A DNA stretch of 39,077 nt, from assembly GCA_013360745.1 (NCBI GenBank), contig JABWBA010000026.1:1-39077 (forward strand), written 5' to 3'. Under the pieces are notes generated by a model. It had not been told where the DNA came from. It saw nothing but the letters and a program-made list of their open reading frames with translations, and made no database searches. The stretch comes from Chthonomonadales bacterium. GTDB lineage: Bacteria; Armatimonadota; Chthonomonadetes; Chthonomonadales; CAJBBX01. Positions 1,423-32,910 of this stretch are shown here, one piece after another (positions within the stretch are counted from its first letter, which is position 1; the number at the start of each line of letters is the position of its first letter). The position numbers were made by a program, and so were the translations under genes.

Positions 1423-1465
1423 GATGACGCGGTGAGGCTCCGATTCCGGTCAGCATCCATAGCAG

Positions 1466-2266
1466 TCAGCGACCGACGGCGCGGATGGCCACGACCCGTC
1501 CGTCGGTATATACGATGTTGTTCTTGTCGCCGTGACGTCCCTTCGTCGGCATATCGCCCAGACCGCCGCTTGCGTTCGGCCCGGGTAGATCACTATCGAA
1601 GAACAGCGGCATATCCTTCGCCGTCGATATCTCGACTAGCCGCTTTCCAGCGGCTTCAGCATTGATCGCGTAACCGTTCCCATCCGGTCCAAGGACCGGA
1701 CAATGGGACGCCGCCGGATCCGACAAAGTCTCTTGAAGAGCATCTTGCCATCGGTCAGCCGGCGGGAGCATTCCGTCCCAGTTATCGGAATAGATCTGGG
1801 CTGCGGTGTAGAGCTTCGTCAGGTGATCGGAACAGGTGGCATCGTGTACTGTCGGTTCCCCGCTGGACGGTTCCAGCTGCTTGACAAGCGCGATCACCGG
1901 CCTGAGTTGATAACCGGTCAGCAGAGTTCCTGCAAGCAGGACGATTGTGCCGGCGATACCTCCACGGAAACCCATGTTATAAAGTCCACCTGCGATTAAC
2001 CCACCGCAGATGACCGGTATCAACAGGCTCAGAGGTCCCAGGGCGATCTCGGTACCGCTGACCTTGACGGTCCCGCTCGATAGCCAGTACAGCCCTCCAC
2101 CCCAGATCGCCGATATCAGGCATCCGACGACCCAGGCCGTTCGTCCGCTCCGCCGTGTGCCGAGCCATGCAGCGAGGACCGGTCCAACGACAGGCAGAAC
2201 CACCAACGGCGCTGATAGGACCGTCGTGATCGCCAGCGCGGCTAACGGGCTCCGGTGCGCGTTCAT
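1466..2266 (-). CDS. Membrane protein with pseudopilin-like (DUF1559-type) C-terminal tail
   Basis: This is a 266-residue protein in two parts. Residues 1-125 contain about four hydrophobic segments (starting with LAALAITTVLSAPLVVLPVV), giving a small membrane domain. Residues ~140-266 are soluble and resemble the globular end of pilin-like DUF1559 proteins: LTKLYTAAQIYSDNWDGMLPP near the beginning and GRHGDKNNIVYTDGRV at the end. The latter is the H-x9-D-G type ending that is abundant in Planctomycetota and Armatimonadota. Normally this domain sits behind a type IV pilin methylation helix; here it follows a multi-pass membrane domain. Its ATG shares one base with the TGA of the upstream transporter gene (TGATG), so the two are translationally coupled. 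The function is unknown. Confidence 0.7.
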   Translation of the reverse strand: MNAHRSPLAALAITTVLSAPLVVLPVVGPVLAAWLGTRRSGRTAWVVGCLISAIWGGGLYWLSSGTVKVSGTEIALGPLSLLIPVICGGLIAGGLYNMGFRGGIAGTIVLLAGTLLTGYQLRPVIALVKQLEPSSGEPTVHDATCSDHLTKLYTAAQIYSDNWDGMLPPADRWQDALQETLSDPAASHCPVLGPDGNGYAINAEAAGKRLVEISTAKDMPLFFDSDLPGPNASGGLGDMPTKGRHGDKNNIVYTDGRVVAIRAVGR

Positions 2267-4302
2267 CAGAACGGCAGATAGTTCACCGACTTAGCGATGA
2301 GGGAAAGGGCAATGGCGGCCATCGCGATCAGTCCGGTTCCACAGGCAAACCCCGCGAGCAGTACCGGGGCGTACATCCTCCACTGGTCGACGCCAAAACG
2401 ATTCTGGAAATACCGCCGGCCCAGCCATGCACCGAAAAACGTCGGGATGATATCGGCCGGCCATGCGCCGACACCACCGATCATGCCGTAATAGAACAGC
2501 TCCGGCAAGCGGGCAAGCTTGATGATCCCGTATAGCCCCATACCCGCCACCATTCCTGCAGCGATCCGGACTCCGTTGATCCCTTCCAGAACCCACTTGG
2601 GTCCATCGGGCTTATTGATCGTCTGGAACATGGCCTGGAACGTTGCGGCAAGCGGCCAGAAACGCTGGGCATAGGGGTGCTGCGAGGATGGGATCGCTCC
2701 GGTGTGCCAGAAGAAGGCCCAGAAGATGAACGAGGCTGTCAGAAAGATCGGAAGTACGGCGAACTCGACCTTGACGACGCTGGTGAACTTGGTGCCTGTC
2801 AACTCCACCTCACGAAACCGCTGGGCTAGCGGTCCGTAATCTGCCAGAGGTATCGGAGCGTACCAGATATCCACATGAGGATAGCCGCTTTTCATAATCG
2901 AGGCTTCCCGCAGGAATGGGAAGGAGACGCCGGAGCCTGTCAGCCCCATCATCCGTGCGCTGATGAACGAGTTGATGGGGGTCCAGATAAGGCCGAAGAA
3001 GATCAGGAGCCCCCAGGGGAACTGGCCAGCGTGCCCGTCTACCCCGAGCAGATACTGGGTCAATACGATATAGAAACAGGTGATGACAAACCATGTACCG
3101 AGCGGGATGAGGATGGAGATGTCCCCTCTGCCTTTCGGCACCTGCGAAAAGAGCCCTCGTCCGTTGGTCTCTTGTTTAAATCGCATCAGAGCTTTGACGA
3201 CCTGTACGATGCCGATGAGCGCTACGGCGAGTTGGAGACCGATCCCGATCGACATCCAGAACTTGATGTCTGTTATCAGCCTTGTGTTAATGGCATCCAT
3301 CCCGCGCGTCCAGCCGTTCGTGGCGGCAGATCCAAAAGCGCCGGAGTTATAGAGCAGCGTCGGGCCGGGGAATACCTTGCATAGCAGCGAACTCACCAGG
3401 CTGCCTGCTACGATCGGATAGGGCAGCACGAAGCCGACCAGAACCTTGCCGAGGTCGCCGGACAGTCCGGTCAACGCCCCGGGCAGTATCGTCTCGGTGC
3501 TCTGCGTCAGGTCGAAGAACGGGATGGGAATGAGCTGCATCGCTTTGTTGAACACGACACCCGTGAAGACGGGTATGCCGACATAGAAGAAGCCGAAGAC
3601 GAGACCGATCACGGTGCCGATTGAGAAGACCCTCCACCGCCACGACTCCTCTTTGCTGGCCGCCTCTGCAAGTGCGGTAGCTCCAGATGCGGCGACGGGC
3701 GCCATCGGGAATGGCAGGCGCTCGACATCCGACGTGACGCGGAAGAGCACATAGCCCATGCTCATCCAGTTCAGCCGTCCGAGCACTTCGTTAATGACGA
3801 GCAGCAGGATCGGTATGGCCCAGTGGGCATGGAGGAACGTCCGCTGTGTGAGGGCCGCCGAGCCAGCGGGCGGAACTACCCAGTTTGGAATCTCGGACGC
3901 CACGAGGCCCGCCTGCGGCGCCTGTCGAAAATACTGGTTCCAGATCAGATATCCGAATGGACCGCCGGAGATGCCCCGATCGGCCATCAAGAGGCTCGAT
4001 AGCATTGCCGCGACATAGTAGAGGATGTAGATCTCCTGCCGCTTCATCGGCAGGAAGGACCGACGCATCACCTCGGAGAAGAGGACGATGGTCACCCATT
4101 CGGCGGCGGCTCCCAGCCCCTGCCCTGCTACGAGACCCAGGTACAGCGCTCCCGGGAGCATGATGAAACCGACGAAGAACGCACCGACAAGCGTCTTTGC
4201 GGTAAAGCCCTCCTCATACTGGACGGCTCGACCCTCAGCGCCCTCCTCTACGGACGCCTCTTCAACGGTTTCTCTGGCTAGCGCAATGTCGTCAATGGCC
4301 AA
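2266..4302 (-). CDS. Polytopic OPT-like (oligopeptide transporter-type) membrane protein
   Basis: This is a 678-residue integral membrane protein with about 14 hydrophobic segments after a short acidic cytoplasmic N-terminus (residues 1-33). Its overall look is that of the OPT-like proteins often annotated as peptide transporters or DUF6784/DUF6785 in Planctomycetota and Armatimonadota: GAFFVGFIMLPGALYLGLVAG in the first segment, RLPFPMAPVAASGATAL in a loop, and GLTGSGVSFPFLREAS later. Known OPT proteins use the proton gradient to import small peptides or metal chelates; the substrate here cannot be read from sequence. Translation appears to start at TTG (4302-4300), because GGAGGT lies 8-9 bases upstream and no ATG fits. 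It follows the large permease fusion by 69 bp and is coupled to the next gene by a one-base overlap. Confidence 0.7.
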   Translation of the reverse strand: MAIDDIALARETVEEASVEEGAEGRAVQYEEGFTAKTLVGAFFVGFIMLPGALYLGLVAGQGLGAAAEWVTIVLFSEVMRRSFLPMKRQEIYILYYVAAMLSSLLMADRGISGGPFGYLIWNQYFRQAPQAGLVASEIPNWVVPPAGSAALTQRTFLHAHWAIPILLLVINEVLGRLNWMSMGYVLFRVTSDVERLPFPMAPVAASGATALAEAASKEESWRWRVFSIGTVIGLVFGFFYVGIPVFTGVVFNKAMQLIPIPFFDLTQSTETILPGALTGLSGDLGKVLVGFVLPYPIVAGSLVSSLLCKVFPGPTLLYNSGAFGSAATNGWTRGMDAINTRLITDIKFWMSIGIGLQLAVALIGIVQVVKALMRFKQETNGRGLFSQVPKGRGDISILIPLGTWFVITCFYIVLTQYLLGVDGHAGQFPWGLLIFFGLIWTPINSFISARMMGLTGSGVSFPFLREASIMKSGYPHVDIWYAPIPLADYGPLAQRFREVELTGTKFTSVVKVEFAVLPIFLTASFIFWAFFWHTGAIPSSQHPYAQRFWPLAATFQAMFQTINKPDGPKWVLEGINGVRIAAGMVAGMGLYGIIKLARLPELFYYGMIGGVGAWPADIIPTFFGAWLGRRYFQNRFGVDQWRMYAPVLLAGFACGTGLIAMAAIALSLIAKSVNYLPF

Positions 4303-4371
4303 GCGCCGCTACCTCCCTCTTGCCGCTTCCGCGCCTCGTTGCCCCCCATGGCATGGAGCACGCTTCTCCCC

Positions 4372-7300
4372 TCATTCCGCTGCCGGAGCCGTAGCCATGG
4401 GCGTTGCGTCGCCCGGGCCATCGGTGCGAACAAGGTACCGCTCGCGATCGCCCTGCTTCAGGGTTCGCCAGATCAGGAACTGCTTTCGCAGCGTATTCAG
4501 GAACCTCCGATTGACGCGCTTCCAGTTCGAAATGTCGCCCGATTCACGATGGATCACGACCTGGATCTCGAAGACATCCGCCATCGTAGTTGGCTGGGTC
4601 TCGATCGTCAAGCGCTGGCTCACGCCAAGATCGAAAGGAGCTAACCAGGTCATACAGCGGATGCGGTATACCGTGCCTGTCCCGATCCCCCCGGGCAGCG
4701 GGACCTCGGTCTCTTCGGTTTCGACGTTCTGCGTGACAAAGTCGCCGATGCTGTACTCCTCATAGGCCGCGAACCATTCGGCAAGGAAGCTGTTGAGCCC
4801 CTTTGCCTGCTCACCCGTAACGGAGAATGGCAGCGGAATGGTCCAATCATCGCCGTTCGGCTCCGCCACTCTCCACGAACGGTCAATAGCCGGTGTGGCG
4901 ACCTCAGCCGCTTTACGTGCGGGATACAGTGTGGAGAGCAGAACGACGCCGACGACCACCAGCGTCGTCATCACCGCCGATACGGACGAAAAGTTCAGGT
5001 ACAGGCCCTGGAAAGAACCTGTCGCAACCAGAACGGTGGTTGTCAACTGCCCAAGCAAGTATCCCGCGACCGATCCCAGGATCGCATAGACCAGCGCTTC
5101 CGCCATGAAAAGCATGCCGATGTGCGCGGGAGCCAGCCCGATGGATGAGAAGATGTGGATCTCCCGCACACGCTCGAATACGGAGCCCAGCATCGTATTG
5201 AGGACGATTAGAGCCGCGATCAGGACCGGGAAGAAGACGAGCTCGAGGCCCTTGCTCGATGTGGCAGCGATCGATGAATACCGTTCGATACTCGGTCGTT
5301 CGTTCGGATCGGACGGGATACGGCCGGCATAAAGATTCAACCCCAGCCGGTGCATCAGCGGCCCCAGCGTCTCGGTCACTCTCTTCGCATCCCCGAAATC
5401 GATGCCGATCGACCGCAGCTCGGCGCCCAGGTTTGTCGCCGTCCGATATGGGATGAAGAAGATAGCATCTGGCTCGAGGTGCGTGTATTCGCGGAAACCG
5501 GTTTCACCGCCGCTGCGCCCTTGCTGGGTCATCTTCTGCATCAGGATAAAGTCCACAGGCGTGAGCGGCTCGCTGTCCAGATCAAGGATCTTCTTGAGCC
5601 GCTGGACATCAAAGATGCCGATGACCGTATAGTCGACGCCGGCATAGCTGACTGTAGCGGTGCCCACATCCTCGCGCTCCACTCGCAGGGCGGACGCGAT
5701 GGCATCAGGCAGGATCACCGAATACACATCGGAGGAGTTGAACCACCTACCCGCAATGAGAGCGTCTTGCGGGCGTGTGACCCTGGACTCCTGCGGCGTA
5801 AGGCCCACCAGAGCCTTGGCATCATACTGGGCATCGGCCCGCTTGATCGTCAGGAAGGATTGTTCGCCTAGCTGCGTCCCGAAGAACCAGGACCTCGGCG
5901 CAACGGCATGCGACTTGCCGTATTCATCGGCGAGCAGGCGGTAGGCCGGCTCCTGGAGCTGGTCCCACATCGCGGTTCGGATCATCAAGCCGTTATAACG
6001 GGGTTTGCCGGGCGCCGGCACTTGATTGAACCGCATCGTCTGGACCACGGAGGTAAAGGACAGAACCGTAAACGTCAGCAGAACCAGAGTGACGCACGTG
6101 AGGAAGGTCCTGGCCTTTCGGCGGCGCATGTTCGAGATACCCAGGTTGAACGCAGCCAGGGCGACGCTTACCCGGCCGATATCCACTCGGTGGACGCCGG
6201 ACGATTGCTGGTTCATCTGCTTGAGCTGTTCTTCGAACTTACCCGCGATCAACGCGATGACGATGCAGGACAGAGCGCCCATGATAAAGGCAAGCAAGAC
6301 GATCACCGGGTTCATCGTGATATCGAAGGCAGGATGCACCTGGGAGAAAATGCCGAAGATGGCGAGAAAGATGAGCGCTGCCCACGCGAGCTGTCGCTTT
6401 AAATCATAGGAGCCGAATAGAAGCCGTTCCATGAAATAGGCAAACGGCATGAGAAGCGCGAGGTAGAACAGGACTCCCTGTACGACATCGACGGCTGTTC
6501 GCTGTACGTCGGGATAGGCACGGGAGGTATAGCCCCACGCCGCACGACTGTCCGCGTCGAAGCGCTCCCAGTTCAGTTGATCCCGAGCGGCGGTGGCGCT
6601 GGCGATGGCCTTTCGTCCAAGTTCGTGGAGCTGGTTGATCCCTTCGTTGATGATCCGGTATTTCGCCAGACGGTTGATCCGGAAATCGTTGAGCATCCAC
6701 ATATCGTTCGCGACATGCAGCGCGGTGTGGTAGATCGCACCCTGTCGAGCGATCTCACGCTTGGGATCGAAGGCGTCGAGCGTTACTTTGCCCCGGAGCT
6801 CAGCGTCCTGCGCTTCGTTGGGATCACCGCCGACAAGATATCCCCGGCCTTCCGGAGCCTGTTTATCGGGATTGATCAACAAGAGCCGTGTCGCGCCCGG
6901 ACCGGCGCCCATGAGTATCTTCAATCGGGCACCGGGCTGAGAGAAGATAACGGCCATATCCTCGACATAGGAGCCGACAAGCCAGGGATCCTGAGGGTCG
7001 ATGGCATAGCCGAACATACGGGGTTCACCGTTGGTCGCACCGTCTAGAATGTCGATCGTGACCAGTGCGCGCAGCGATTGTTGATCGACAAGATCATAGA
7101 TCGAGGTGGGTACGCACCGGAAGAGGATTACCGGCACTTCCTTCCGCGCCGTCGTGACCTGGACATCCAGCGGCATGAACTTGGCGCCGGTTACCCCGAG
7201 GTCGGGAGCGTAGTTGATCTGTCCTTTGCGCGCGTTCGATACCATCCGCCCGGTCGGACGCCCGGTCTTTGGATCGAGCTCCGGCACTTCATTCCGGTAG

Positions 7301-9300
7301 TCGAGGTGGTATGCGGCTACGCGCGTAACGGCGTTTCCACCGTAGGCAGTGAGCGGAGCGACACCCCGGAACTCAAAGACGTTCTTCTCCTGAGTCTTAT
7401 CGTCGTTCCGAACCGCCTGGATCATATTGCCCCGAACGCCCATATAGCTCTTGGTTCGGTTGCGAATGACCGCGAGGGAGTCGGCCAGCGCCGGATCCGC
7501 ATACGCGATAAAGCTCCTGCGCGGGTTGTACAACGTCAACCTGCCGCGAACGGTGGCGAAGCCTCCCTGCAGCGCCATCCGAGACCATTTCGATGGCTCC
7601 GTAATCGGCATTCGCTGGGCGTTGACGTCCCCCGGTTCGTTGGTATCGCGCGTGATGTGATAGAACTGACAGACCAGCATCCGGGTCTGGAACGCCACAT
7701 TTGCCACATTCACACGATCGGCGGTATCGAACGGCGTGTCAACGAGGGCGCGTGAGTCGTCCACCGAGGCGAAGGTGATGCCGTTGCCCTGGGCCATAGT
7801 GATCACTTCGGAGTCGAACGCGGGCTTCCCCGGTATGTGGTTGCGCCAGTTCTTGCCGTCGACCGGATTTACCCCGTCGGCGAACACCTTCTTCGCCTCG
7901 AATCCGAGTACATTCCCGATCTTATCGGCGTTTTCGCGACAGACGCGAGCGATATCCGAGAACCGCCCCTGGATATCCTCGCGAAAGTCGTAGAACCAGC
8001 CCTTATAGAAGATGCCCAGGCCCCTTGTCTGACTGCTGAGATCCAACCCGGCCCACAGATAGATCGTGGCCCGCTTTCGAAGCGGCTTGTCGCGCGGCTG
8101 CATATAGAACAGAGTGTTCAGTACGACGAACAGCGCCGTGAATGCCGCGATGACGCCGGTGCCCGCGTTGAAGCGGCGCCCCGTCTCAGGATCGGGCCTG
8201 GCCACCCGCGAAACAAGCCAGACGAGGAACAGCAGGAGACCACCCGTGATCCAGATGGCGTTCTTGGAGGCGTTCTCGACTGCGACGGCCTTCTCTCCGA
8301 GACTCGGCGGCTCCCAATCGTCGATATGGGCATTCAGAAACTCGCGAATACCCCGGAGGGCCTGGAAATGCCCGCTGGTCGCGACGAAATACATCGTTCG
8401 CTTGGGAGGGTTCGCCTTATAAATCCGCGCGATCTCCAGCAGGCTGGCGATGCCGCAGGCCGATTCTCCTCCCGGAGCCAGCGACGGGACGACGGAGATC
8501 GAATCAAAGTAGCCCTGCACTGCAATGATCTGCTCACGCTGTTTGGGGTCGGTGCCGGTGATCTTGCCGAATACACAGCTGGAATCGCGCGTTTCCCACG
8601 GCATATCACATCGGACCGTGCATTTCGGAGCGGTCTCACCGGCGGCCGCCGCGAGGACCGCAGGAGCATCCTCGCGTCTTAGCCAGAATCTCGGGATATT
8701 GATAGGAATCGAGATGAACTTCGATTCGGCTTCGCCGCGCATCGTTGTCTCGGGAGCGACAAAGACAACGGCACGTGCACCGAGCCGAGGCGCATTGAGC
8801 CATTCGGCGCGGCTATTGAAGTCGACGATGACGATGGACCCCTCAACCTTCTTACCGTTGAAGTTGCCCAGTCTCCCATCACCAACGTAGATCAAGTCGC
8901 CCGTCAAGCCGTCGGGAGGCAGCTGGGATGTGCTTACGAGGTTGGGCCAGAGCGGATAAAGGCGCGTCTTGAGATCACCAATCCGGATCTCAGCGCCACG
9001 GTCGACGGGAACGGTGACCGGAAACTTCTGAACAGCGACATCCTCGAGACCGAGCGCCTTGAAGCGTCCCTCCACGTAGGCGGCGGCCTTGGCGTCCCCT
9101 TCGTATCCGGCGACTCGAGAGCCATACCCCGCGAGAGTGCGGATCGTCGACGAGAGGTTCTCAGCGCTGACCGCACCCGCAAGCTTACGGTAGTTACCGG
9201 GATCTTCCTCAGCCGCATGCGCCGACGAGGACGCTAACAAGAGCAGGCAAGTCCAGTACCATGCGCGGCGCTTGGGTAAAGAGACCCGGGCATACGACAT
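4372..9300 (-). CDS. Giant exported M28-peptidase-like / FtsX-MacB permease fusion
   Basis: This 1642-residue protein starts at the ATG at 9300, which has AAAGGAAAG just upstream; an in-frame ATG at 9354 lacks such a site. Residues 1-29 are a signal peptide (CLLLLASSSAHA). Residues ~45-330 match an M28 aminopeptidase with an inserted PA domain, but the zinc-site motifs are replaced: GYFDS (263-267) for G-H-x-D-S, GGESACG (277-283) for G-A-N-D-N-x-S-G, and SGHFQ (309-313) for S-G-E-E. Two membrane helices lie at ~350-400. A long, probably periplasmic or extracellular region (~400-930) follows, then several helices at ~940-1020. Residues ~1055-1455 look like a MacB/FtsX permease: one helix, a large periplasmic domain, then three helices including VLNTMLGSVFERVREI. 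A ~180-residue tail ends the protein. No ABC ATPase gene is in the window. It heads the minus-strand operon that includes the OPT-like transporter. Confidence 0.85.
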   Translation of the reverse strand: MSYARVSLPKRRAWYWTCLLLLASSSAHAAEEDPGNYRKLAGAVSAENLSSTIRTLAGYGSRVAGYEGDAKAAAYVEGRFKALGLEDVAVQKFPVTVPVDRGAEIRIGDLKTRLYPLWPNLVSTSQLPPDGLTGDLIYVGDGRLGNFNGKKVEGSIVIVDFNSRAEWLNAPRLGARAVVFVAPETTMRGEAESKFISIPINIPRFWLRREDAPAVLAAAAGETAPKCTVRCDMPWETRDSSCVFGKITGTDPKQREQIIAVQGYFDSISVVPSLAPGGESACGIASLLEIARIYKANPPKRTMYFVATSGHFQALRGIREFLNAHIDDWEPPSLGEKAVAVENASKNAIWITGGLLLFLVWLVSRVARPDPETGRRFNAGTGVIAAFTALFVVLNTLFYMQPRDKPLRKRATIYLWAGLDLSSQTRGLGIFYKGWFYDFREDIQGRFSDIARVCRENADKIGNVLGFEAKKVFADGVNPVDGKNWRNHIPGKPAFDSEVITMAQGNGITFASVDDSRALVDTPFDTADRVNVANVAFQTRMLVCQFYHITRDTNEPGDVNAQRMPITEPSKWSRMALQGGFATVRGRLTLYNPRRSFIAYADPALADSLAVIRNRTKSYMGVRGNMIQAVRNDDKTQEKNVFEFRGVAPLTAYGGNAVTRVAAYHLDYRNEVPELDPKTGRPTGRMVSNARKGQINYAPDLGVTGAKFMPLDVQVTTARKEVPVILFRCVPTSIYDLVDQQSLRALVTIDILDGATNGEPRMFGYAIDPQDPWLVGSYVEDMAVIFSQPGARLKILMGAGPGATRLLLINPDKQAPEGRGYLVGGDPNEAQDAELRGKVTLDAFDPKREIARQGAIYHTALHVANDMWMLNDFRINRLAKYRIINEGINQLHELGRKAIASATAARDQLNWERFDADSRAAWGYTSRAYPDVQRTAVDVVQGVLFYLALLMPFAYFMERLLFGSYDLKRQLAWAALIFLAIFGIFSQVHPAFDITMNPVIVLLAFIMGALSCIVIALIAGKFEEQLKQMNQQSSGVHRVDIGRVSVALAAFNLGISNMRRRKARTFLTCVTLVLLTFTVLSFTSVVQTMRFNQVPAPGKPRYNGLMIRTAMWDQLQEPAYRLLADEYGKSHAVAPRSWFFGTQLGEQSFLTIKRADAQYDAKALVGLTPQESRVTRPQDALIAGRWFNSSDVYSVILPDAIASALRVEREDVGTATVSYAGVDYTVIGIFDVQRLKKILDLDSEPLTPVDFILMQKMTQQGRSGGETGFREYTHLEPDAIFFIPYRTATNLGAELRSIGIDFGDAKRVTETLGPLMHRLGLNLYAGRIPSDPNERPSIERYSSIAATSSKGLELVFFPVLIAALIVLNTMLGSVFERVREIHIFSSIGLAPAHIGMLFMAEALVYAILGSVAGYLLGQLTTTVLVATGSFQGLYLNFSSVSAVMTTLVVVGVVLLSTLYPARKAAEVATPAIDRSWRVAEPNGDDWTIPLPFSVTGEQAKGLNSFLAEWFAAYEEYSIGDFVTQNVETEETEVPLPGGIGTGTVYRIRCMTWLAPFDLGVSQRLTIETQPTTMADVFEIQVVIHRESGDISNWKRVNRRFLNTLRKQFLIWRTLKQGDRERYLVRTDGPGDATPMATAPAAE

Positions 9301-9380
9301 CCGTGCTTTCCTTTCCCGAGGCGGTAGGCCAGCCATGGCACACGCAGGCGCCATGGAGTGTGGAGAAACACACGAGCGTA

Positions 9381-9410
9381 ATCATAACACACGCAACATC
9401 GAAAAGGCAA
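9381..9410 (-). promoter_or_regulatory. Candidate sigma-70 promoter of the M28/FtsX operon
   Basis: On the minus strand, TTGCCT (9410-9405) and TATGAT (9386-9381) are separated by 18 bp, about 80 bases upstream of the ATG at 9300. The -10 matches 5 of 6 consensus bases and the -35 matches 4 of 6. No better promoter was seen in the 9301-9559 gap for this direction. Confidence 0.45.
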
Positions 9411-9482
9411 TAAGCGCGGCCCATGTCCGAGCAGAGACCTATCACTGCGATGAAAAACGGTCTATAGATTTTCCGCCAGGGC

Positions 9483-9512
9483 TTGACACGCAATATCTAG
9501 CGGTGATAGAGT
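9483..9512 (+). promoter_or_regulatory. nrdR promoter, extended -10 type
   Basis: A perfect -35 TTGACA (9483-9488) is followed after 18 bp by TAGAGT (9507-9512), which is preceded by TGA and so forms an extended -10 (TGn). Transcription should begin near 9519, leaving a leader of about 40 nt before nrdR. The spacer contains the NrdR-box-like element listed separately. Confidence 0.55.
9488..9503 (+). promoter_or_regulatory. NrdR box in the nrdR promoter spacer
   Basis: The core CAATATCTAG at 9491-9500 fits the known NrdR-box pattern C-W-A-T-A-T-x-T-W-G at every fixed base; the outer flanks match poorly. It lies between the -35 and -10, where a bound repressor would block RNA polymerase. A weaker copy, CTATAGATTT at 9462-9471, starts 29 bp upstream. 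NrdR normally binds paired boxes about three helical turns apart, so the spacing is near but not identical to the usual one. Confidence 0.5.
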
Positions 9513-9559
9513 CGGTAACCACAACATCTTGTACGTCCAGACCGATTGGACCCGCTCCC

Positions 9560-10018
9560 ATGCGATGCCCGTACTGCGGAACCAACGACGATAAGGTGCT
9601 CGATTCCCGCGAGGCGCAGGACGGGTCGACGATTCGTCGCCGCCGCGAGTGCAAGGGATGCGGGCGCCGTTTTACCACGTTCGAACAGACCGAGGAAATG
9701 GAGCTGTACGTCGTCAAACGGAGCGGACGGCGAGAACCCTATCAACGGGAGAAAGTCCTGCAGGGCATGCGAATCGCGTGTAAGGGCAGGCCGATCAGCG
9801 CTGATACGCTCGAAGCCGCCGCGGACGATATCGAGCGCCTGCTGTTAAACCGACTTGAACGCGAAGTGCCAACCGAGGTCATCGGCGAAATGGTGGTCGA
9901 GCGCCTGCGGACGATTGATCAGGTTGCCTTTGTTCGCTTCGCCTCGGTCTATCGACAGTTCGAGGATGCAACCCAGTTTAAAGAGATCGTCAACCGCCTT
10001 CGACGGCGGAGATCATGA
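9560..10018 (+). CDS. nrdR: Transcriptional repressor NrdR
   Basis: This 152-residue protein has the usual NrdR length. It senses the nucleotide pool (ATP/dATP) and represses ribonucleotide reductase genes. An N-terminal zinc ribbon carries the four ligands C3, C6, C31 and C34 (MRCPYCG and ECKGCGRRF), followed by TTFE. An ATP-cone domain follows at ~49-139, including VVKRSGRREPYQREKVLQG and the VAFVRFASVYRQF signature near its end. The start is set by family alignment at the ATG of MRCPYC. The frame is open further upstream, but those codons do not belong to the family and would run through the promoter. The ribosome binding site is weak. It lies 56 bp before nrdJ, its expected regulatory target, and its own promoter carries an NrdR-like box, which suggests autoregulation of the pair. 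Confidence 0.95.
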   Translation: MRCPYCGTNDDKVLDSREAQDGSTIRRRRECKGCGRRFTTFEQTEEMELYVVKRSGRREPYQREKVLQGMRIACKGRPISADTLEAAADDIERLLLNRLEREVPTEVIGEMVVERLRTIDQVAFVRFASVYRQFEDATQFKEIVNRLRRRRS

Positions 10019-10074
10019 TTACAGCCGCAGCCGATGAACTTCGGCAATAAAGAAGCATAGAGAGGCCGACGGAG

Positions 10075-12888
10075 ATGAGCGTTACCGATATATCCGCAAG
10101 TGTTAGGACCATTGAGTCGAATGGTGATTCCGCTGCGATCGACCGCAGCGGTAATACCACCTCCGATGGATCGGAGGGAGTGATGGCGGTACCCGGGCTG
10201 TCAATCAACCGATACTACACCCACAAGGGTCAGGATGTCTGGGCCAGTGTCGTCTGGACGAGACGGTCTGCAGTGATCACGGGCGACAAGGGCGATGAGG
10301 TCTTCCGGCAGGACGATATCGAGGTGCCGGAAAGCTGGTCCCAGTTGGCCACGAACGTCGTCGCCTCCAAGTACTTCAGAGGGCATCTCGGCACTCCAAC
10401 GCGAGAGTCTTCGGTGCGTGCGCTGATCACGCGGGTCGCACACACGATAACGGAATGGGGACACACCGGCCGGTACTTCGCCACGGACAGCGACCGCGCT
10501 GCCTTTCGTGATGAGCTGACCTATCTGCTGTTACACCAGATGGCCGCGTTCAACTCGCCCGTATGGTTCAACGTCGGACTACCGGATCAGCCAGAACCGC
10601 AGTGTTCAGCATGCTTCATCAACTCGGTGCAGGACACCATGGAGAGCATCCTGACCCTGGCGAAGACCGAGGGAATGCTCTTCAAGTACGGCTCCGGCAC
10701 CGGTACGAACCTGTCGTCGTTGAGATCGAGTGTCGAAAGCCTCCAGGGCGGCGGAACCGCGTCCGGGCCGGTATCGTTCATGCGGGGCTACGACGCCTTC
10801 GCAGGCGTGATCAAATCGGGCGGCAAGACCCGTCGAGCAGCCAAGATGGTCATCCTGAACGCGGACCATCCCGACATCAAACGGTTCATCACATGCAAGG
10901 CGGATGAGGAACGGAAAGCCTGGGCGCTCATCGACGCAGGCTACAGCGGCAACTTCAATGTGCCCGGCGGGGCTTATGACAGTGTCAGCTATCAGAATGC
11001 GAACCACTCGGTACGCGTCACAGATGAGTTCATGGCGGCGGTTGAAGCCGATCAGCCGTGGACGACGCGCTATGTCCTGGACGGCCGACCGGCGGATACT
11101 TATGCCGCGACCGAGCTGATGGAGGAGATCGCCGAATCCGCGTGGATCTGCGGCGACCCGGGCATGCAATACGATACGACCGTTCAGCGCTGGCATACCT
11201 GCAAGGCGTCCGGACGGATCAACGCAAGCAATCCCTGCTCCGAATACATGTTCCTGGATGACAGCGCCTGCAACCTCGCATCCCTGAACCTCCTCAAGTT
11301 CCGGCGCCCGGATAGATCGTTCGACTGTGACGCCTTCGAGCACGCCTGCAGGATCATCATCACTGCGCAGGAGATCATCGTGGGCTTCGCCGGCTATCCG
11401 ACGGAGGCGATCGCCCGGAACAGCCGCCTGTTCCGGACCCTTGGCCTTGGATACGCGAACCTCGGCGCCCTGCTCATGGCGCGCGGTCTCGCCTATGACA
11501 GCGACGAAGGACGCGCGATGGCCGGTGCGATTACGGCTCTTATGACCGGCGCCGCCTACAGTCAGTCGGCGTGTATCGCTCGCGATCACGGCGGTCCGTT
11601 CGAATGCTACCAGCCCAATGCCGCCTCGATGCTGGAGGTGATGCGCAGTCATCGCGCGGCGGTCGATGCTCTCGACGCCTCCCTGGTGCCGGAGGATCTG
11701 CTCAATCACGCTCGGTCGAGCTGGGACGAGGCCATTGCCATGGGCTCCAGACACGGCTATCGAAACGCCCAGGCAACCGTGCTGGCCCCGACCGGCACCA
11801 TCGGTTTCATGATGGACTGTGATACGACCGGTGTGGAGCCGGACATCGCGATCGTCAAATACAAGAGCCTCGTCGGCGGCGGGATGATGAAGATCGTCAA
11901 CTCGACCGTGCCTGAGGCATTGCGGACTCTGGGATATAGCGCGGCAGAAACCGACTCGATCGTAGCGCACATCGCGGAGTTTGACACGATTGAGAACGCG
12001 CCGGCGCTCCGGGCGGAGCATCTCCCCGTCTTCGATTGTGCGTTCAAGCCGGCGCAGGGCGTTCGATCCATCCATTACATGGGCCATGTCCGGATGATGG
12101 CTGCGGTCCAACCGTTCATCAGCGGAGCCATCTCGAAGACCGTGAACATGCCCAACGACGCGACACCGGCGCAGATACGCGATGTGTATATGGAGGGTTG
12201 GCGGCAGGGATTGAAGGCCATCGCGATCTATCGTGACGGATCCAAGAGGACTCAGCCAGTCAACACCCATCACGCATCTGGAGCGGCTTCCGACGACCGG
12301 TTGGCGCCGTCCAGCGATGTGCATACCCCCGGGAAACCGATCCGGCGTAAGCTGCCTGACGAGCGGCGATCCATCACCCACAAGTTCAGCATCGCCGGGC
12401 ACGAGGGCTATGTCACCGTCGGGATGTACGACGACGGACAGCCGGGAGAACTATTCCTGACCATGAGCAAGGAAGGGTCCACCATTTCCGGCTTGATGGA
12501 CACCATCGCCACAATGGCCTCCCTCACCCTGCAGTACGGCGTTCCACTCGAGACCCTGGTCAACAAGTTCGCCCATATGCGATTTGAGCCATCCGGCATT
12601 ACCCCGAATCCCGACATCCGATTCGCTAAATCGATCCCGGACTATATCTTTCGCTGGCTCGGTCATAAGTTTCTGCCGTCCGATGCCCAACCACCGGTGG
12701 ATGAGCCGTCGCTCAACGGAGGCGGCACAGCGCACCAGCCGGGCGACGGCGGATATCACGACCGTGAACGGCGGATTTTCGAGCTCCAATCGGATGCGCC
12801 TGCCTGTTCCGAATGCGGATCCCTGATGGTGCGCAATGGCGCATGCTACAAGTGTCTGAACTGCGGGGCGACCGTTGGCTGCTCTTGA
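10075..12888 (+). CDS. nrdJ: Vitamin B12-dependent (class II) ribonucleoside-diphosphate reductase
   Basis: This 937-residue enzyme reduces ribonucleotides to deoxyribonucleotides using adenosylcobalamin to make the thiyl radical, so it works with or without oxygen. Visible family marks are FNSPVWFNVG near residue ~160, ACFINSVQD, the NPCSE motif (386-390) with its radical-site cysteine, APTGTIGFMMDCDTTGVEPD in the barrel, and a C-terminal cysteine cluster (CSECG, then CYKCLNCG) that acts as the redox or zinc tail in this subclass. The ~45 residues before GLSINRYYTHKGQ are poorly conserved. The ATG at 10075 has AGAGAGG about nine bases upstream. It follows nrdR by 56 bp with no terminator visible, so the two are probably co-transcribed. 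It implies that the organism makes or imports cobalamin. Confidence 0.96.
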   Translation: MSVTDISASVRTIESNGDSAAIDRSGNTTSDGSEGVMAVPGLSINRYYTHKGQDVWASVVWTRRSAVITGDKGDEVFRQDDIEVPESWSQLATNVVASKYFRGHLGTPTRESSVRALITRVAHTITEWGHTGRYFATDSDRAAFRDELTYLLLHQMAAFNSPVWFNVGLPDQPEPQCSACFINSVQDTMESILTLAKTEGMLFKYGSGTGTNLSSLRSSVESLQGGGTASGPVSFMRGYDAFAGVIKSGGKTRRAAKMVILNADHPDIKRFITCKADEERKAWALIDAGYSGNFNVPGGAYDSVSYQNANHSVRVTDEFMAAVEADQPWTTRYVLDGRPADTYAATELMEEIAESAWICGDPGMQYDTTVQRWHTCKASGRINASNPCSEYMFLDDSACNLASLNLLKFRRPDRSFDCDAFEHACRIIITAQEIIVGFAGYPTEAIARNSRLFRTLGLGYANLGALLMARGLAYDSDEGRAMAGAITALMTGAAYSQSACIARDHGGPFECYQPNAASMLEVMRSHRAAVDALDASLVPEDLLNHARSSWDEAIAMGSRHGYRNAQATVLAPTGTIGFMMDCDTTGVEPDIAIVKYKSLVGGGMMKIVNSTVPEALRTLGYSAAETDSIVAHIAEFDTIENAPALRAEHLPVFDCAFKPAQGVRSIHYMGHVRMMAAVQPFISGAISKTVNMPNDATPAQIRDVYMEGWRQGLKAIAIYRDGSKRTQPVNTHHASGAASDDRLAPSSDVHTPGKPIRRKLPDERRSITHKFSIAGHEGYVTVGMYDDGQPGELFLTMSKEGSTISGLMDTIATMASLTLQYGVPLETLVNKFAHMRFEPSGITPNPDIRFAKSIPDYIFRWLGHKFLPSDAQPPVDEPSLNGGGTAHQPGDGGYHDRERRIFELQSDAPACSECGSLMVRNGACYKCLNCGATVGCS

Positions 12889-27628: not shown

Positions 27629-27655
27629 CTGGCACTCGCCTTGCTCGAGTGCTAA
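27629..27655. promoter_or_regulatory. CIRCE operator (HrcA-binding inverted repeat)
   Basis: CTGGCACTC, nine bases, then GAGTGCTAA. The right arm is a perfect match to the CIRCE consensus and the left arm matches 7 of 9. It overlaps the expected groES transcription start (~27652), the usual place where HrcA represses chaperonin genes until heat shock. An hrcA gene is not in the window. Confidence 0.88.
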
Positions 27656-27827: not shown

Positions 27828-29735
27828 ATGCATCGACGTTCATTGTCTTTCGCGCTCGCCTGCGCTCTCGCAATACTCGTTCTCGCTGCGATCGCCCAAC
27901 GACGCCCCGCCAGCTCCACATCCCAGAATCGGGCGATCGCGGTTACGGCGCGCCTCAACACGAACGATATCATCCAGCAGTCCGCCATCCGAGTGGCTCG
28001 GATGGGTATCAAGTCGGATGGCGCCGACGCTGTCGCCCGGGACCCGGCAGGCGAGGCCTATCTTATCATGAACATGGAGTTTGACTCCGAGGCCAATCGA
28101 AAGGCCTACGCCGTCGCTGGAGCTCCGGTATTCGCCTCGGCGGATCGTTATGCCGATGCCTTCGTGCCGGTCAGCGATGCCAGCGCCCTCGCACCGCAGA
28201 TCGACAAAGTCCCGGGCCTGGTCCGAATAGCGATCGCCGACCGAGTTGCCGCGCCGCCGGCCCCCAAACCCGGGAATAAGGCATCGCGCGGCGAACCAGA
28301 GCCGATCGTCCGCGGCGGCCTCTCGGGGCTCACGGGCAAAGGCGTGATCATCGCGATCGTTGACTCGGGCCTTGACTTCCGGAATAAGGACTTCATCCGG
28401 TACGAGGATGGCAAACCCGTATCGCGTCTCCTCTATTTGTGGGATACGACCAGCGGCGATTTCGACGCTGGGCGCGGCGGCTCCCGGGCGCCCATCCGCT
28501 ATCCAAACGGAGCTTCCGTAGGAACCGTGTATACCCGTGACCAGCTGACCCAGGACCTCCGAGGAGCATCCAGCGTGATCGGAAACAGAGACCTGAATGG
28601 CCACGGGACCTCGTGCGCCGGCATCGCGGCTGGCAATGGCAACAACCTCAAGCGTAATATCGGCGTTGCCCCGAATGCCGACATCATTGGCATCAGGATC
28701 GGAGGAACCGCATCGGGAGGACTCGACTTCGCATGGACACTCAATGCCGCGTGCGAATGGCTCGATCAAGTGGCGGGTTCGACGCCGCTGGTCGTGTCGT
28801 GCAGCTTCGGCGGCCATGCGGGACCGCATGATGGTACGAGTATTGAGGAACAGCATCTGAGCTCACGGTTTACCGATCAGACCAGGTCCAGAGCGTTGTG
28901 CGTTGCAGCGGGCAATGAAGGTAACGAGAGGATTCATGCCGAAGTCACATTGGGCAGCTCCAGCAAGCCGGCGGAGCTCAAATGGAAGTCCGGTCCTGGC
29001 GCCAGCCTGTCCCTGATCTTCTCGACCTCGGATATGAGCACAGTCCGATTCCGACCAGCTCCTGGAGTCATCCTCCCGAAACTCAAGGCATCCGTGAACC
29101 CTCACACGAGACAGGCATCGGTCCCCATACCGATTACCGGTGTCGGCGAAGGGTCGATGCAGATCTTCACCAGCGGCGAACAGCCAGTTCAATGCGATGC
29201 CTACATCAGCGGCGGCGCGTTTGATACGAGTTGTTCGACTTTCTCCAAGCTCGTCGGCAAACCGGGCACAGCGGCCGGAGCGATCACCATCGGCAGTTAC
29301 GATTGGAACGATCGCTTCGAGCATAAAGATGGTCCTGTTGTCGTCAGTCCGGAAGGCAAACCGATGATTATCGGCGGCCTTTCATCCTATTCCAGCGTCG
29401 GACCGAGCCGCGATCCCAACATCACGAAACCCGATCTGGTCGCTCCAGGGCAGTTCTACTCAGCGCCGGCTCCTCTCGACGAAACCGACGGGATGCGGGA
29501 TGCAAGCGGCAACTACCAGATCTTCAACGGAACTAGCGCGGCGACTCCCTATACAGCCGGTGTGATTGCCCTGATGTTTGAGCGGAAGCCCGGGCTGACG
29601 TATGGCGATATCCGAAACCTGCTCAGGCGATCGCTGTCGTCCGATGCCTACACCGGCTCGGCTCCAAACCCAAGGTGGGGTTACGGCAAGCTCGACCTTG
29701 CAGCAGTCCGGAGATTGCTTGCGGCCATCGAGTAA
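27828..29735 (+). CDS. Secreted subtilisin-like (S8) serine protease
   Basis: This 635-residue exported protease has a signal peptide (residues 1-23, SFALACALAILVLAAIAQ), then a ~130-residue segment that is probably a propeptide. The catalytic domain shows the S8 triad: D179 in IAIVDSGLDF, H259 in DLNGHGTSCAGIA, and S570 in NGTSAATPYTAG. Between the histidine and serine there is an unusually large gap (~310 residues), which includes a beta-rich insertion (~350-460). This recalls the PA-less, insert-bearing S8 proteases of Bacteroides-type and Planctomycetes-type bacteria. GAGGTGG lies nine bases before the ATG. The gene runs divergently from groESL. The next gene, a TPR-CHAT protease, begins only seven bases after its stop codon. 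Confidence 0.92.
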   Translation: MHRRSLSFALACALAILVLAAIAQRRPASSTSQNRAIAVTARLNTNDIIQQSAIRVARMGIKSDGADAVARDPAGEAYLIMNMEFDSEANRKAYAVAGAPVFASADRYADAFVPVSDASALAPQIDKVPGLVRIAIADRVAAPPAPKPGNKASRGEPEPIVRGGLSGLTGKGVIIAIVDSGLDFRNKDFIRYEDGKPVSRLLYLWDTTSGDFDAGRGGSRAPIRYPNGASVGTVYTRDQLTQDLRGASSVIGNRDLNGHGTSCAGIAAGNGNNLKRNIGVAPNADIIGIRIGGTASGGLDFAWTLNAACEWLDQVAGSTPLVVSCSFGGHAGPHDGTSIEEQHLSSRFTDQTRSRALCVAAGNEGNERIHAEVTLGSSSKPAELKWKSGPGASLSLIFSTSDMSTVRFRPAPGVILPKLKASVNPHTRQASVPIPITGVGEGSMQIFTSGEQPVQCDAYISGGAFDTSCSTFSKLVGKPGTAAGAITIGSYDWNDRFEHKDGPVVVSPEGKPMIIGGLSSYSSVGPSRDPNITKPDLVAPGQFYSAPAPLDETDGMRDASGNYQIFNGTSAATPYTAGVIALMFERKPGLTYGDIRNLLRRSLSSDAYTGSAPNPRWGYGKLDLAAVRRLLAAIE

Positions 29736-29742
29736 TCGCGGT

Positions 29743-32700
29743 ATGCCGTGCAGTCGCGGTCCTCGTGCCGTCGGTATTGGATATATAGCCATTGCCTTCG
29801 TTCTAGCGCAGGCGAAGCCTTCGCATGGAGACGCGCCCCAGCCGTCTCCCTACGAATCGGCGCCGATCGGTGTTGTGCGAGGATATATGATGAACCTCGT
29901 CGACGGTCGGGTCGACGAGGCGCTGCGCCGATGCACTTCCGCCGCGGCACGCCGCGCGGATCTAGAGGAGATCACCCGGGCAGCCGCAGCGCTGCGGATC
30001 GCACCTGATGCGAAGCTGACCACGTGGTATCGATCTGGAGACGCGGCCAAAGCCGTGGTGCGAGCAAAGACCGTGTGGCGTACCGACGAGGGTATGCGCT
30101 CCCTTGCGATCGATGTCCGTCTGGACGCAGAGGGAACAGCATGGCTCATCCAGGCGGTTCGCGACGCCTACGACTACGTCCAGGCCGAGCTCATCAAAGC
30201 GGCCGAAGCCGCCGAGCGCGAGTCCGTCCTCCAGGCCAATGCAGAACTCATCGACCCGACGATCGCCCTGCAAATCCGGCGGGCGGCGGAGAAGCTATCC
30301 ATCGAAGGCAAGCACGATGATGCGCTGCGAGCGGCGGAGGCGGCCCTCGCCGTTGGCGCACGTCTCAACGCCCACTACGAACTCGGCTATGGATATTTGA
30401 CTCGCGGATCGGTCTACAAGCGACGTATCGAATGGAATCGCGCCCTCGCCGATTACGAGAAGGCCCGCATCGAGTTCGTAGCGGACAAAGATAAGGAGGG
30501 TGAAGCAAAGACCCAGAGTCGCGCGGCCAGCATCTATACCCGGGTCGGACTGCATACCAAGGCGATTGTGTTCTACGAGAACGCCCTCCGCCTGTTCCGC
30601 GAGATCAAGGACGACAACGCCGAAGCGGACGCTCTGCAGGATATCGGCGCGGTCTTAAAGGATCTCGGGCGGCCCGAAGAGGCGCTTCAGCGGAACACCG
30701 AGGCCAGGCTCATACGGCAGCGTCGAGGCGAAACGCGCCGCGACGCTATCCTGATGGCGAATGAGGCGGGGCTATTGTCCGACCTTGGCCGCTATGGGCC
30801 TGCCGTAGCGCTCTTCTACAAGGCGATTGAGATACTACGGGAGCACAAGGACTCCGATAGTCTGGGATATGCGTTGAACAACCTTGCAACCACCCTTGAT
30901 GAGCTGGGAAGGCTCTCCGAATCCCGGGAGAGTCTGCAAGAAGCGCAGGCCGCGTTCCGCGCTGTCGGCAATCATTCGGGTGAATGGATGGCAACTCATA
31001 ACCTCGCGGGCCTGCTGGCCCGGCTTGGTATCATGGACCAGGCCCTCGAGCTAGGCCTTGAAGCTGCGAGGCTGGCCGAACAGCTCGATGAGCGGCGATA
31101 CCAGAGTCAGACCGATGGCCTGCTCCAGGAGATCATGCTGGAGACGAACGAGTACGCCCAGGCCCTGGCCCTCACGGAGGGTCGTCTGGAAGCAGCCAGG
31201 GCGACGGGTAATCGGGTCCAGGAGGCTTCTGCACACCTCGTGGCGGGCTTTGCGCTCACGGGACTCGACCGTCTTGACGAGGCGAAGATCCAGTTTGACG
31301 CCGCAGCGAAGATCGCCGACAGCCTACAATCCCGCCTGCTCCAGCGACAGACGTGGCGGGGGTACGGGAAGATCGCGGAAAAGCGCAAGGAATGGCCAGC
31401 CGCCGCGTATGCGTACGGTTGTGCGATCAGCGCCATCGAGAAAGACCGCTACTCTACACAGGAACAATCCCTCCAGACCAGCTTCTTACGGCTCCATATT
31501 CCTATCTATCGAAGCTGGATACGCGCGCTTCTCGAGTCCGGCCGGATTGATGAGGCCTACTTTGCATCGGAGCGAGCCAAGGCCCGCGGACTGGTCGATA
31601 TGCTCCGTGATGGACGCATCGATCTATCCCGATCTATGTCGGCGGATCAACGCCAGCGGGCGAGAGAGCTCGATGAAAACCTGAAGGAGCTCAGCGCACG
31701 CGCCGAACAGACGGTTGTAACCGATGAACTCGATGCGCTGACCACGGCAATCCAAAAGGCACAAAAGGAGATCGATGACTTTCGCATTGCGCTGTACCTG
31801 GAGCGGCCCGACCTAGAAGCGCGAAGCGGCGAGTTTGCGCCTGCGTCGCTGCAGGAGATTGCCTCCGCCCTCTTTCGAACTGCACCATCGTCCGCGATCG
31901 TCACTTATACATTCATCGATGAGAAATGCCATATCTTCGTGCTGCGGCGCACGAAATCGGGCGCGGCGTCGATTCACCATGTCGTCTCGCCGATGAGAAC
32001 AAGCCGTATCTACGATCAGGCAGATCGCCTCTGGCGAGAGATCATGGCCCATAAGCCGACCTACCGCGGCGCAGCCCGCGCACTGTATACCGGTATGATC
32101 GGACCCGTGGAGACGCTGCTGGCAGGGAAGACTCATCTCATCATCTCCACGGATGTGGCGATGCCCGATATACCCTTTATCGTGCTCCTTGACGCCAGAG
32201 GGCGCCCGTTGATAGAACGTCGCTCGGTCAGTTATGCACCATCGGTCACCGCTCTGGTTCGGATGGTGCAGGACGCCAGATCCCGGGGACGCAGAGCTGC
32301 GGGTCTGCTCGCCGTTGGCGCCCCGAAGTTCGGGCCCGGCTTCAGCCCGCTCCCAGCCACAGCGGATGAGGTTCGACGCGTGTCCGCGACGATGCGCCAC
32401 GCCACGACGCTTATCGGAGCATCCGCGACTCAGGAGCGCGTCATCGAAGCCATCAACCGCGTACGGTATATCCACTTCGCGACCCACGGTGTCCTGGATG
32501 AACGGTCACCCATGCAGTCGGCCGTCGTTCTGAGCCCGTCGGCTACGAGTGATGGTCGTCTAACCGCCCGCGATTTGGCCCGGCAAGACCTGAAGGCGGA
32601 CCTTGTCGTACTCTCCGCGTGCGAGACCGCACGAGGAAAGCGCGTCAACGGCGAGGGTATCCTGGGACTTACCTGGGCCTTGTTCATCGGCGGCACGTCG

Positions 32701-32910
32701 GCAACCATCGCATCGCAATGGCAGGTAGCGGACACCAGCACCCGCACCTTGATGGTCGAGTTCTATCGGCGGCTCTCATCGGGTTCGCCGTCCAAACTGA
32801 GCACAGCCGAAGCGCTGCGCCAGGCCCAGCTAGCGGTCGCCCGTGACCCGCGCTATCGACATCCCTACTACTGGGCGCCGTTCATCCTGACCGGCAACTG
32901 GCTCCGTTAG
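29743..32910 (+). CDS. Secreted TPR-CHAT (caspase-like) protease
   Basis: This 1055-residue protein has a signal-peptide-like N-terminus (GIGYIAIAFVLAQAKPSHG). The segment ~30-140 resembles a small scaffold domain with a conserved YMMNLVDGRVDEALR helix. A long array of tetratricopeptide repeats (~165-600) follows, including YEKARIEFVADKDKEGEAKT. A helical linker (~610-700) leads to a C-terminal CHAT domain (~720-1055) with both catalytic residues of the caspase/separase class: H915 in HFATHG and C960 in LVVLSACETARG. CHAT proteases cleave specific partners; the TPRs probably bind the target. The start is the ATG seven bases after the S8 stop. It has no clear ribosome site, so it is probably translated by coupling to the S8 gene. 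The frame is open upstream, but that part lies inside the S8 gene. Confidence 0.9.
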   Translation: MPCSRGPRAVGIGYIAIAFVLAQAKPSHGDAPQPSPYESAPIGVVRGYMMNLVDGRVDEALRRCTSAAARRADLEEITRAAAALRIAPDAKLTTWYRSGDAAKAVVRAKTVWRTDEGMRSLAIDVRLDAEGTAWLIQAVRDAYDYVQAELIKAAEAAERESVLQANAELIDPTIALQIRRAAEKLSIEGKHDDALRAAEAALAVGARLNAHYELGYGYLTRGSVYKRRIEWNRALADYEKARIEFVADKDKEGEAKTQSRAASIYTRVGLHTKAIVFYENALRLFREIKDDNAEADALQDIGAVLKDLGRPEEALQRNTEARLIRQRRGETRRDAILMANEAGLLSDLGRYGPAVALFYKAIEILREHKDSDSLGYALNNLATTLDELGRLSESRESLQEAQAAFRAVGNHSGEWMATHNLAGLLARLGIMDQALELGLEAARLAEQLDERRYQSQTDGLLQEIMLETNEYAQALALTEGRLEAARATGNRVQEASAHLVAGFALTGLDRLDEAKIQFDAAAKIADSLQSRLLQRQTWRGYGKIAEKRKEWPAAAYAYGCAISAIEKDRYSTQEQSLQTSFLRLHIPIYRSWIRALLESGRIDEAYFASERAKARGLVDMLRDGRIDLSRSMSADQRQRARELDENLKELSARAEQTVVTDELDALTTAIQKAQKEIDDFRIALYLERPDLEARSGEFAPASLQEIASALFRTAPSSAIVTYTFIDEKCHIFVLRRTKSGAASIHHVVSPMRTSRIYDQADRLWREIMAHKPTYRGAARALYTGMIGPVETLLAGKTHLIISTDVAMPDIPFIVLLDARGRPLIERRSVSYAPSVTALVRMVQDARSRGRRAAGLLAVGAPKFGPGFSPLPATADEVRRVSATMRHATTLIGASATQERVIEAINRVRYIHFATHGVLDERSPMQSAVVLSPSATSDGRLTARDLARQDLKADLVVLSACETARGKRVNGEGILGLTWALFIGGTSATIASQWQVADTSTRTLMVEFYRRLSSGSPSKLSTAEALRQAQLAVARDPRYRHPYYWAPFILTGNWLR

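Follow-up and report, generated by a model that had tools for sequence, protein, structure and literature searches.

We found that a subtilisin-like (S8) protease and a TPR-CHAT cysteine protease, both with intact active sites and export-type N-termini, are encoded by closely spaced genes whose adjacency is retained in two bacterial families, and that in a third family the CHAT partner of the S8 protease is exchanged for a caspase. It is very likely that the S8 protease and its caspase-like partner work together, and that their coupling is real and functional. The window analysed here, 39,077 nucleotides long, is one entire contig (G000:C120) of the 3.3 Mb draft genome of a Chthonomonadales bacterium. 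Each of the two proteases belongs to a known family and the pair is of a known kind, that of multi-protease modules (PMC7159879); our search of the literature for CHAT together with S8 or subtilisin did not find the exported pair, its conservation or the swap of its partner described.

Layout of the gene pair and features of its products

Both open reading frames were confirmed (Table 1), and the CHAT start codon lies 7 bp past the S8 stop, the spacing given in the initial sequence-only reading. A further upstream ATG, at position 29602, is an unlikely CHAT start in view of the starts in homologues and of the S8-frame codon bias in the overlap; the homologous CHAT genes begin 8-17 bp past the S8 stop (in G011, 29 bp with a later ATG) or share 4 bp with the S8 gene. 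The same reading held that the CHAT gene lacks a ribosome site of its own, which is a fair description (GAG only, as compared with GGAGG at the window's groES and groEL) but weak as evidence, since the S8 gene itself has just GAGG. Translational coupling of the two genes is plausible from this arrangement.

The intergenic region common to groES and the divergent S8 gene contains a CIRCE (HrcA) operator (window positions 27629-27655, 2 mismatches), directly downstream of a TTGACA-18-TATGCT promoter facing groES. Heat-shock co-control of the S8 gene with groES is possible; the groES flank is not conserved in relatives. Elsewhere in the window, positions 4372-9354 encode a 1660-aa protein in which a peptidase M28 region is fused to an FtsX/MacB-type permease.

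Table 1. Positions of the gene pair and of its features in the window
Feature	Position	Strand	Basis or detail
Exported (predicted) S8 subtilase, Csp-like, 635 aa, D179/H259/S570	27828..29735	+	PF00082, CspB best match
S8 signal peptide, residues 1-23	27828..27896	+	Rule-based score 5.68, cleavage between AIA and QRR
Probable S8 prodomain, beta-alpha-beta-beta-alpha-beta, residues ~76-140	28053..28247	+	Low-confidence AlphaFold secondary structure
His-Ser insertion, beta-rich, residues ~368-476	28929..29255	+	Csp jellyroll by position and size
Gap between S8 and CHAT genes	29736..29742	+	7 bp, from sequence
Exported (predicted) TPR-CHAT cysteine protease, 1055 aa, H915/C960	29743..32910	+	PF12770, TPR_12
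CHAT signal peptide, residues 1-24	29743..29814	+	Rule-based score 5.12, cleavage between AQA and KPS
Small alpha+beta domain of three helices followed by four strands	29848..30150	+	AlphaFold model, pLDDT ~45-65
TPR superhelix, residues 141-571	30163..31455	+	Pfam and structure model
CHAT domain, residues 777-1052	32071..32898	+	Pfam; fold like DdvA, separase, Craspase TPR-CHAT
Catalytic His915 codon	32485..32487	+	Motif ATHG
Catalytic Cys960 codon	32620..32622	+	Motif LSACETA

The S8 protease matched PF00082 in Pfam (E 6.6e-34; 118 bits against a cut-off of 21.8), and its catalytic triad was intact and invariant across 11 homologues. Its best PDB match, by sequence and by fold, was CspB (4i0w), and the top 11 Foldseek matches of its AlphaFold model, which is of low confidence (pLDDT 59.6), were all Csp proteins; the NCBIfam models of CspBA (92.4 bits against a cut-off of 1250) and CspC (70.2 against 675 bits) both scored below their cut-offs. 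A large insertion between the catalytic His and Ser had been singled out as a peculiarity of the enzyme, and it is indeed present: the two residues are 311 residues apart, as in the aligned CspB chain, compared with 144 in the genome's own plain subtilisin. The insertion is, however, not a novel element, as its location and length agree with those of the jellyroll in clostridial CspB. We assign it as a putative Csp-type jellyroll from position, size and homology, the insertion itself being modelled at pLDDT ~40-50; a Pfam search with the insertion alone yielded nothing useful. In CspB, the jellyroll insertion is ~130 aa long, the prodomain is retained and the SleC zymogen is cleaved at a single site (PMC3567191). 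The model of the window S8 likewise contains a probable prodomain-like region.

In the second protein, Pfam identified the CHAT domain (PF12770, E 1.5e-72, 244.9 bits) and the repeats (TPR_12, E 2.8e-19). The AlphaFold model (mean pLDDT 79) arranges a signal helix, the small alpha+beta domain, the TPR superhelix and the CHAT domain in this order. Fold matches were led by DdvA, followed by separase and the Craspase TPR-CHAT, and DdvA was also the only PDB sequence match for the CHAT domain. The alpha+beta domain, lying between the signal peptide and the TPRs, is found in three close homologues and had no credible match in a Pfam search.

We scored signal peptides with a simple in-house rule that considers the n-region charge, a hydrophobic core (at least 10 residues) and a small-residue cleavage site. 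Both products received a call (Table 1), under a rule that shuffled N-termini frequently pass and in which composition by itself carries much of the signal; among the controls, GroEL, GroES and the guanylyltransferase received no call, and internal-Met controls reached 3.5 or more in 6 of 351 cases. In other genomes, a signal peptide was called in 4/4 of the S8 homologues and 3/4 of the CHAT homologues. Four of the five paired CHATs scored at least 4.19, and the remaining one (G007) had no call, with a hydrophobic core of 9 residues versus the 10 required. Because shuffled N-termini can pass, the positional argument is the stronger one: the N-terminal sequences diverge among homologues, yet the signal persists, and in close relatives the S8 cleavage region even retains an AQ(Q/R)R pattern. 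Judging from these N-termini, both proteases probably leave the cell.

The earlier proposal that both products carry export signals is thus supported by rule-based calls that recur in homologues, and the CHAT N-terminus, checked as a possible cytoplasmic domain, looks like a signal peptide. The premise that CHAT proteases are usually cytoplasmic was too strong, as exported TPR-CHATs are also predicted elsewhere in the family and phylum (G003, G036 and G040), a TM segment is predicted in HetF (PMC8406250), and DdvA, the closest CHAT of solved structure, is a transmembrane protein.

Conserved adjacency and exchange of the partner

Relatives of the S8 protease were searched in 291 Armatimonadota genomes, eight of which carried one at E<=1e-25. 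The window S8 belongs to a clade of six sampled members from three families (support 95/99 in a tree including G256), and immediately 3' of the S8 gene a clan-CD cysteine protease is encoded in 6/6 cases: an exported (predicted) TPR-CHAT in five, and a caspase (C14) in one (G256). In the five S8-CHAT loci (the window, G007, G011, G087 and G152), order and strand are always kept, the two genes lying -4 to ~30 bp apart. Within the order Chthonomonadales the S8 gene occurs in 3/31 genomes (G000, G007 and G011) and a CHAT gene is next door in all three (50-53% identity), for which the random expectation is 1/4495, the paired genomes inside one family not being independent events; in G007 a contig end cuts the CHAT gene, and the matching C-terminal piece is found at the edge of another contig. 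In G087 and G152, which are of another family (32% identity), the S8 gene is followed by a TPR-CHAT gene with a 4-bp overlap, and both products have signal peptides. The co-occurrence check therefore bears out the pairing, as adjacency is kept in five genomes of two families despite different flanks (groES and guanylyltransferase in the window, a glycoside hydrolase and DUF6036 in G011, ComEC and M50 in G087). We also asked whether the pair belongs to a fixed groESL neighbourhood, and rejected this since the flanks of the relatives differ.

By chance, ~0.1-0.2% of CHAT genes should have an S8 gene as neighbour on the same strand; both CHATs of the window's own genome have one, and so does the sole CHAT of G087, a single-contig genome. 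For the nine sampled S8 relatives outside the clade, no directly adjacent CHAT or caspase gene was found, one of these relatives being on a plasmid record (L093) that is unannotated there. A scan of genome contigs recovered only the two known close relatives and two distant, unpaired S8s, neither of whose genomes has any CHAT gene. The plasmid and phage collections contained no close S8-CHAT pair, and a Rhizobium plasmid relative (L092) encodes a Csp-like S8 with a CHAT two genes away. On this mobilizable plasmid of Rhizobium sp. TH2, positions 819-8497 consecutively encode the CHAT, a hypothetical protein, the Csp-like S8 and a phospholipase D-like protein. A Caballeronia plasmid (L094, 4687-13011) carries a TPR-CHAT gene and then ShlB/FhaC transporter and filamentous haemagglutinin genes, with a type VI secretion cluster alongside.

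In G256, the member from the third family, the S8 gene is followed by an overlapping caspase gene (PF00656, E 2.5e-23), and its S8 groups with the G087/G152 pair (99/98). This case suggests that the constant requirement is an S8 of the clade together with a clan-CD protease. The G256 caspase lacks a positive n-region at its N-terminus, and its lipobox is atypical. One clade for the CHATs of the two families is not firmly supported (p-AU 0.064). The G256 locus (L113, 3102-12414, G256:C21) consists of a cyclase-NB-ARC/NACHT-TPR gene, the Csp-like S8, the overlapping caspase C14 and a WD40 protein in consecutive order, a row of Apaf-1-like parts plus a subtilisin.

The only other CHAT of the window's own genome (L039, G000:C31) has no signal peptide and also adjoins an S8: the end of the CHAT gene overlaps by 4 bp the gene of a plain subtilisin with a signal peptide, and a zf-HC2-like 194-aa protein is encoded upstream, the cluster spanning positions 7443-12139. 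Clusters of ECF sigma, zf-HC2-like, TPR-CHAT and S8 genes occur, with gaps in some, in most Chthonomonadales genomes (further loci, L043-L045 and L054-L063); G006, G009 and G011 keep the sigma and CHAT genes without an S8 in the cluster, and the zf-HC2-like gene was detected in G009 and G011. Like the window pair, these clusters combine a TPR-CHAT with a secreted S8 at tight spacing. They differ from it in that the CHAT is without a signal peptide (0/11 scoring 3.5 or more), the S8 is without the insertion (His-Ser 144), CHAT precedes S8, and the sigma and zf-HC2-like genes are attached. A common origin of the two couplings in this genome was rejected, as their S8s and their CHATs fall in separate clades, and the two look independent. 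On these sequence relationships, CHAT and S8 appear to have become coupled on two or more occasions, in opposite orders along the DNA and with predicted topologies that differ. The recurrence supports a pathway link and at the same time weakens direct cleavage as its necessary form: the membrane is predicted to separate the C31 partners, so neighbouring genes need not mean direct cleavage. The ECF-sigma/zf-HC2-like/CHAT cluster resembles the Craspase logic of sigma, inhibitor and TPR-CHAT (Csx29-Csx30-CASP-sigma), without CRISPR.

A possible mode of action and its alternatives

We propose, with about even confidence, a two-gene module whose proteases would be produced jointly, leave the cytoplasm through the Sec pathway and take part in a single extracytoplasmic proteolytic pathway, the S8 maturing or releasing its caspase-fold partner. 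The S8 would be a Csp-type processing subtilisin of limited specificity, and the TPR and N-terminal domains of the CHAT would be suited to binding a ligand or substrate. In the most likely step, the S8 would contact the caspase-fold partner directly and cleave it, and the matured or released partner would be the regulated, specific effector that acts on the final substrate. The S8 is favoured as the upstream enzyme because it is the constant member, is of the processing type and is found with either CHAT or caspase as its partner. More tentatively, the exported Csp-type subtilisin may serve, outside the cytoplasm, as a constant activator whose caspase-fold executioner (TPR-CHAT or C14) can be exchanged; if true, this would be a bacterial extracytoplasmic counterpart of the caspase activation cascade, in which the activator is retained and the executioner family is swapped.

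The main rival to the S8-first model runs in the opposite direction, with the TPR-gated exported CHAT as sensor and initiator that would cut a retained inhibitory prodomain of an S8 executioner. It agrees with the behaviour of CspB, in which the prodomain, once cut, remains attached and occludes the active site until a signal arrives (PMC3567191), with the modelled prodomain-like region of the window S8, and with TPR-CHATs such as Csx29 being allosterically gated initiators (PMC10028731). We nevertheless find this order doubtful, since a constant S8 with exchangeable CHAT or caspase is slightly better explained by S8 as the upstream common factor. Alternatively, the co-transcribed proteases may work independently, either on one common target in the envelope or outside the cell or in nutrient scavenging, with neither acting on the other, a reading favoured by the second S8-CHAT cluster, where the partners are in different predicted compartments. 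This appears unlikely, because a TPR-CHAT is not a typical enzyme of bulk degradation, Csp-type subtilases are of limited specificity, and the swap to a caspase argues for a specific protease-protease relation.

A role in defence, competition or cell lysis, in which the exported pair would attack invaders or neighbours or perform self-lysis, is brought to mind by the known multi-protease conflict systems (PMC7159879), by the NB-ARC/NACHT-cyclase-TPR and WD40 genes that flank the G256 pair, and by the Csp-like S8 and CHAT two genes apart on the Rhizobium plasmid. We judge it quite unlikely: PADLOC returned generic subtilase, TPR and caspase models only, the window neighbours scanned contained no other defence gene, and neither mobility nor hypervariation was seen. 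It is more improbable still that the CHAT N-terminus anchors the protein in the membrane or was called falsely, leaving the CHAT in the cytoplasm or at its face: the scoring is rule-based and the G007 CHAT falls one residue short, but the hydrophobic N-terminus and small-residue cleavage site recur in place in homologues as the sequence diverges, and are missing from the 11 CHATs of the ECF-sigma cluster.

The bacterial CHAT and caspase proteases studied so far have mostly been regarded as regulators inside the cell or as effectors of defence. A conserved pair of exported proteases, one a subtilisin and the other of clan CD, would place caspase-type proteolysis in the periplasm or beyond, and would give an exported CHAT a defined partner, testable as its activator. 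The pair would be a minimal two-gene system for protease-to-protease signalling, in which the exchange of CHAT for caspase within a single S8 clade opens the dependence to direct testing.

Comparison with known systems

The components of the NTP-dependent conflict systems (Kaur et al. 2020), namely vWA, MoxR, STAND and EAD, were absent among the window neighbours scanned. Craspase Csx29 of type III-E CRISPR shares with the window CHAT the combination of TPR and CHAT, the His/Cys dyad and fold similarity; bound to Cas7-11, it cuts Csx30, which inhibits an ECF-like sigma factor (PMC10028731). The window CHAT differs in being exported (predicted), in having a subtilase partner and in its neighbours, among which there is no CRISPR gene: the flanking genes examined (groES-groEL, GFO/IDH, guanylyltransferase, a sigma-70 with regions 1.2-4, and an aminotransferase) included no cas7-11, csx30 or Craspase-type sigma gene. 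HetF of cyanobacteria, which is membrane-associated, also combines CHAT with TPR (PMC8406250), and differs in its reversed domain order, with CHAT first (CHAT-TM-TPR), in its one internal TM segment and in having no reported S8 partner.

The CspB/CspA/CspC germination subtilases of Clostridia (PDB 4i0w, 9pr9, 6mw4) share with the window S8 the fold, the His-Ser spacing of 311 and a beta-rich insertion at the same place. The window enzyme differs from them in its N-terminal export signal, in its score of 92 versus the NCBIfam CspBA cut-off of 1250, in its partner, which is a CHAT or caspase and not the cortex hydrolase SleC, and in its host, which is not of the Clostridia.

Closest to the window CHAT, in fold and in PDB sequence, is DdvA of Myxococcus xanthus, a transmembrane anti-sigma factor with TPR-CHAT (PDB 8rot, 8rw5). 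In contrast to DdvA, the window CHAT has no zf-HC2 (Pfam) and no TM segment past the signal peptide, where the best 19-residue hydropathy value is just 1.55, and no sigma factor gene is adjacent to the pair. In another genome (L040 6567-11645, G003:C274), a 451-aa zf-HC2-like-similar protein with one strong TM segment adjoins an exported (predicted) 1234-aa TPR-CHAT, a gene pair that looks like a two-gene DdvA. DdvA itself is probably an extracytoplasmic TPR-CHAT, and as it is the best match of the window CHAT, a TPR-CHAT acting outside the cytoplasm probably has a precedent.
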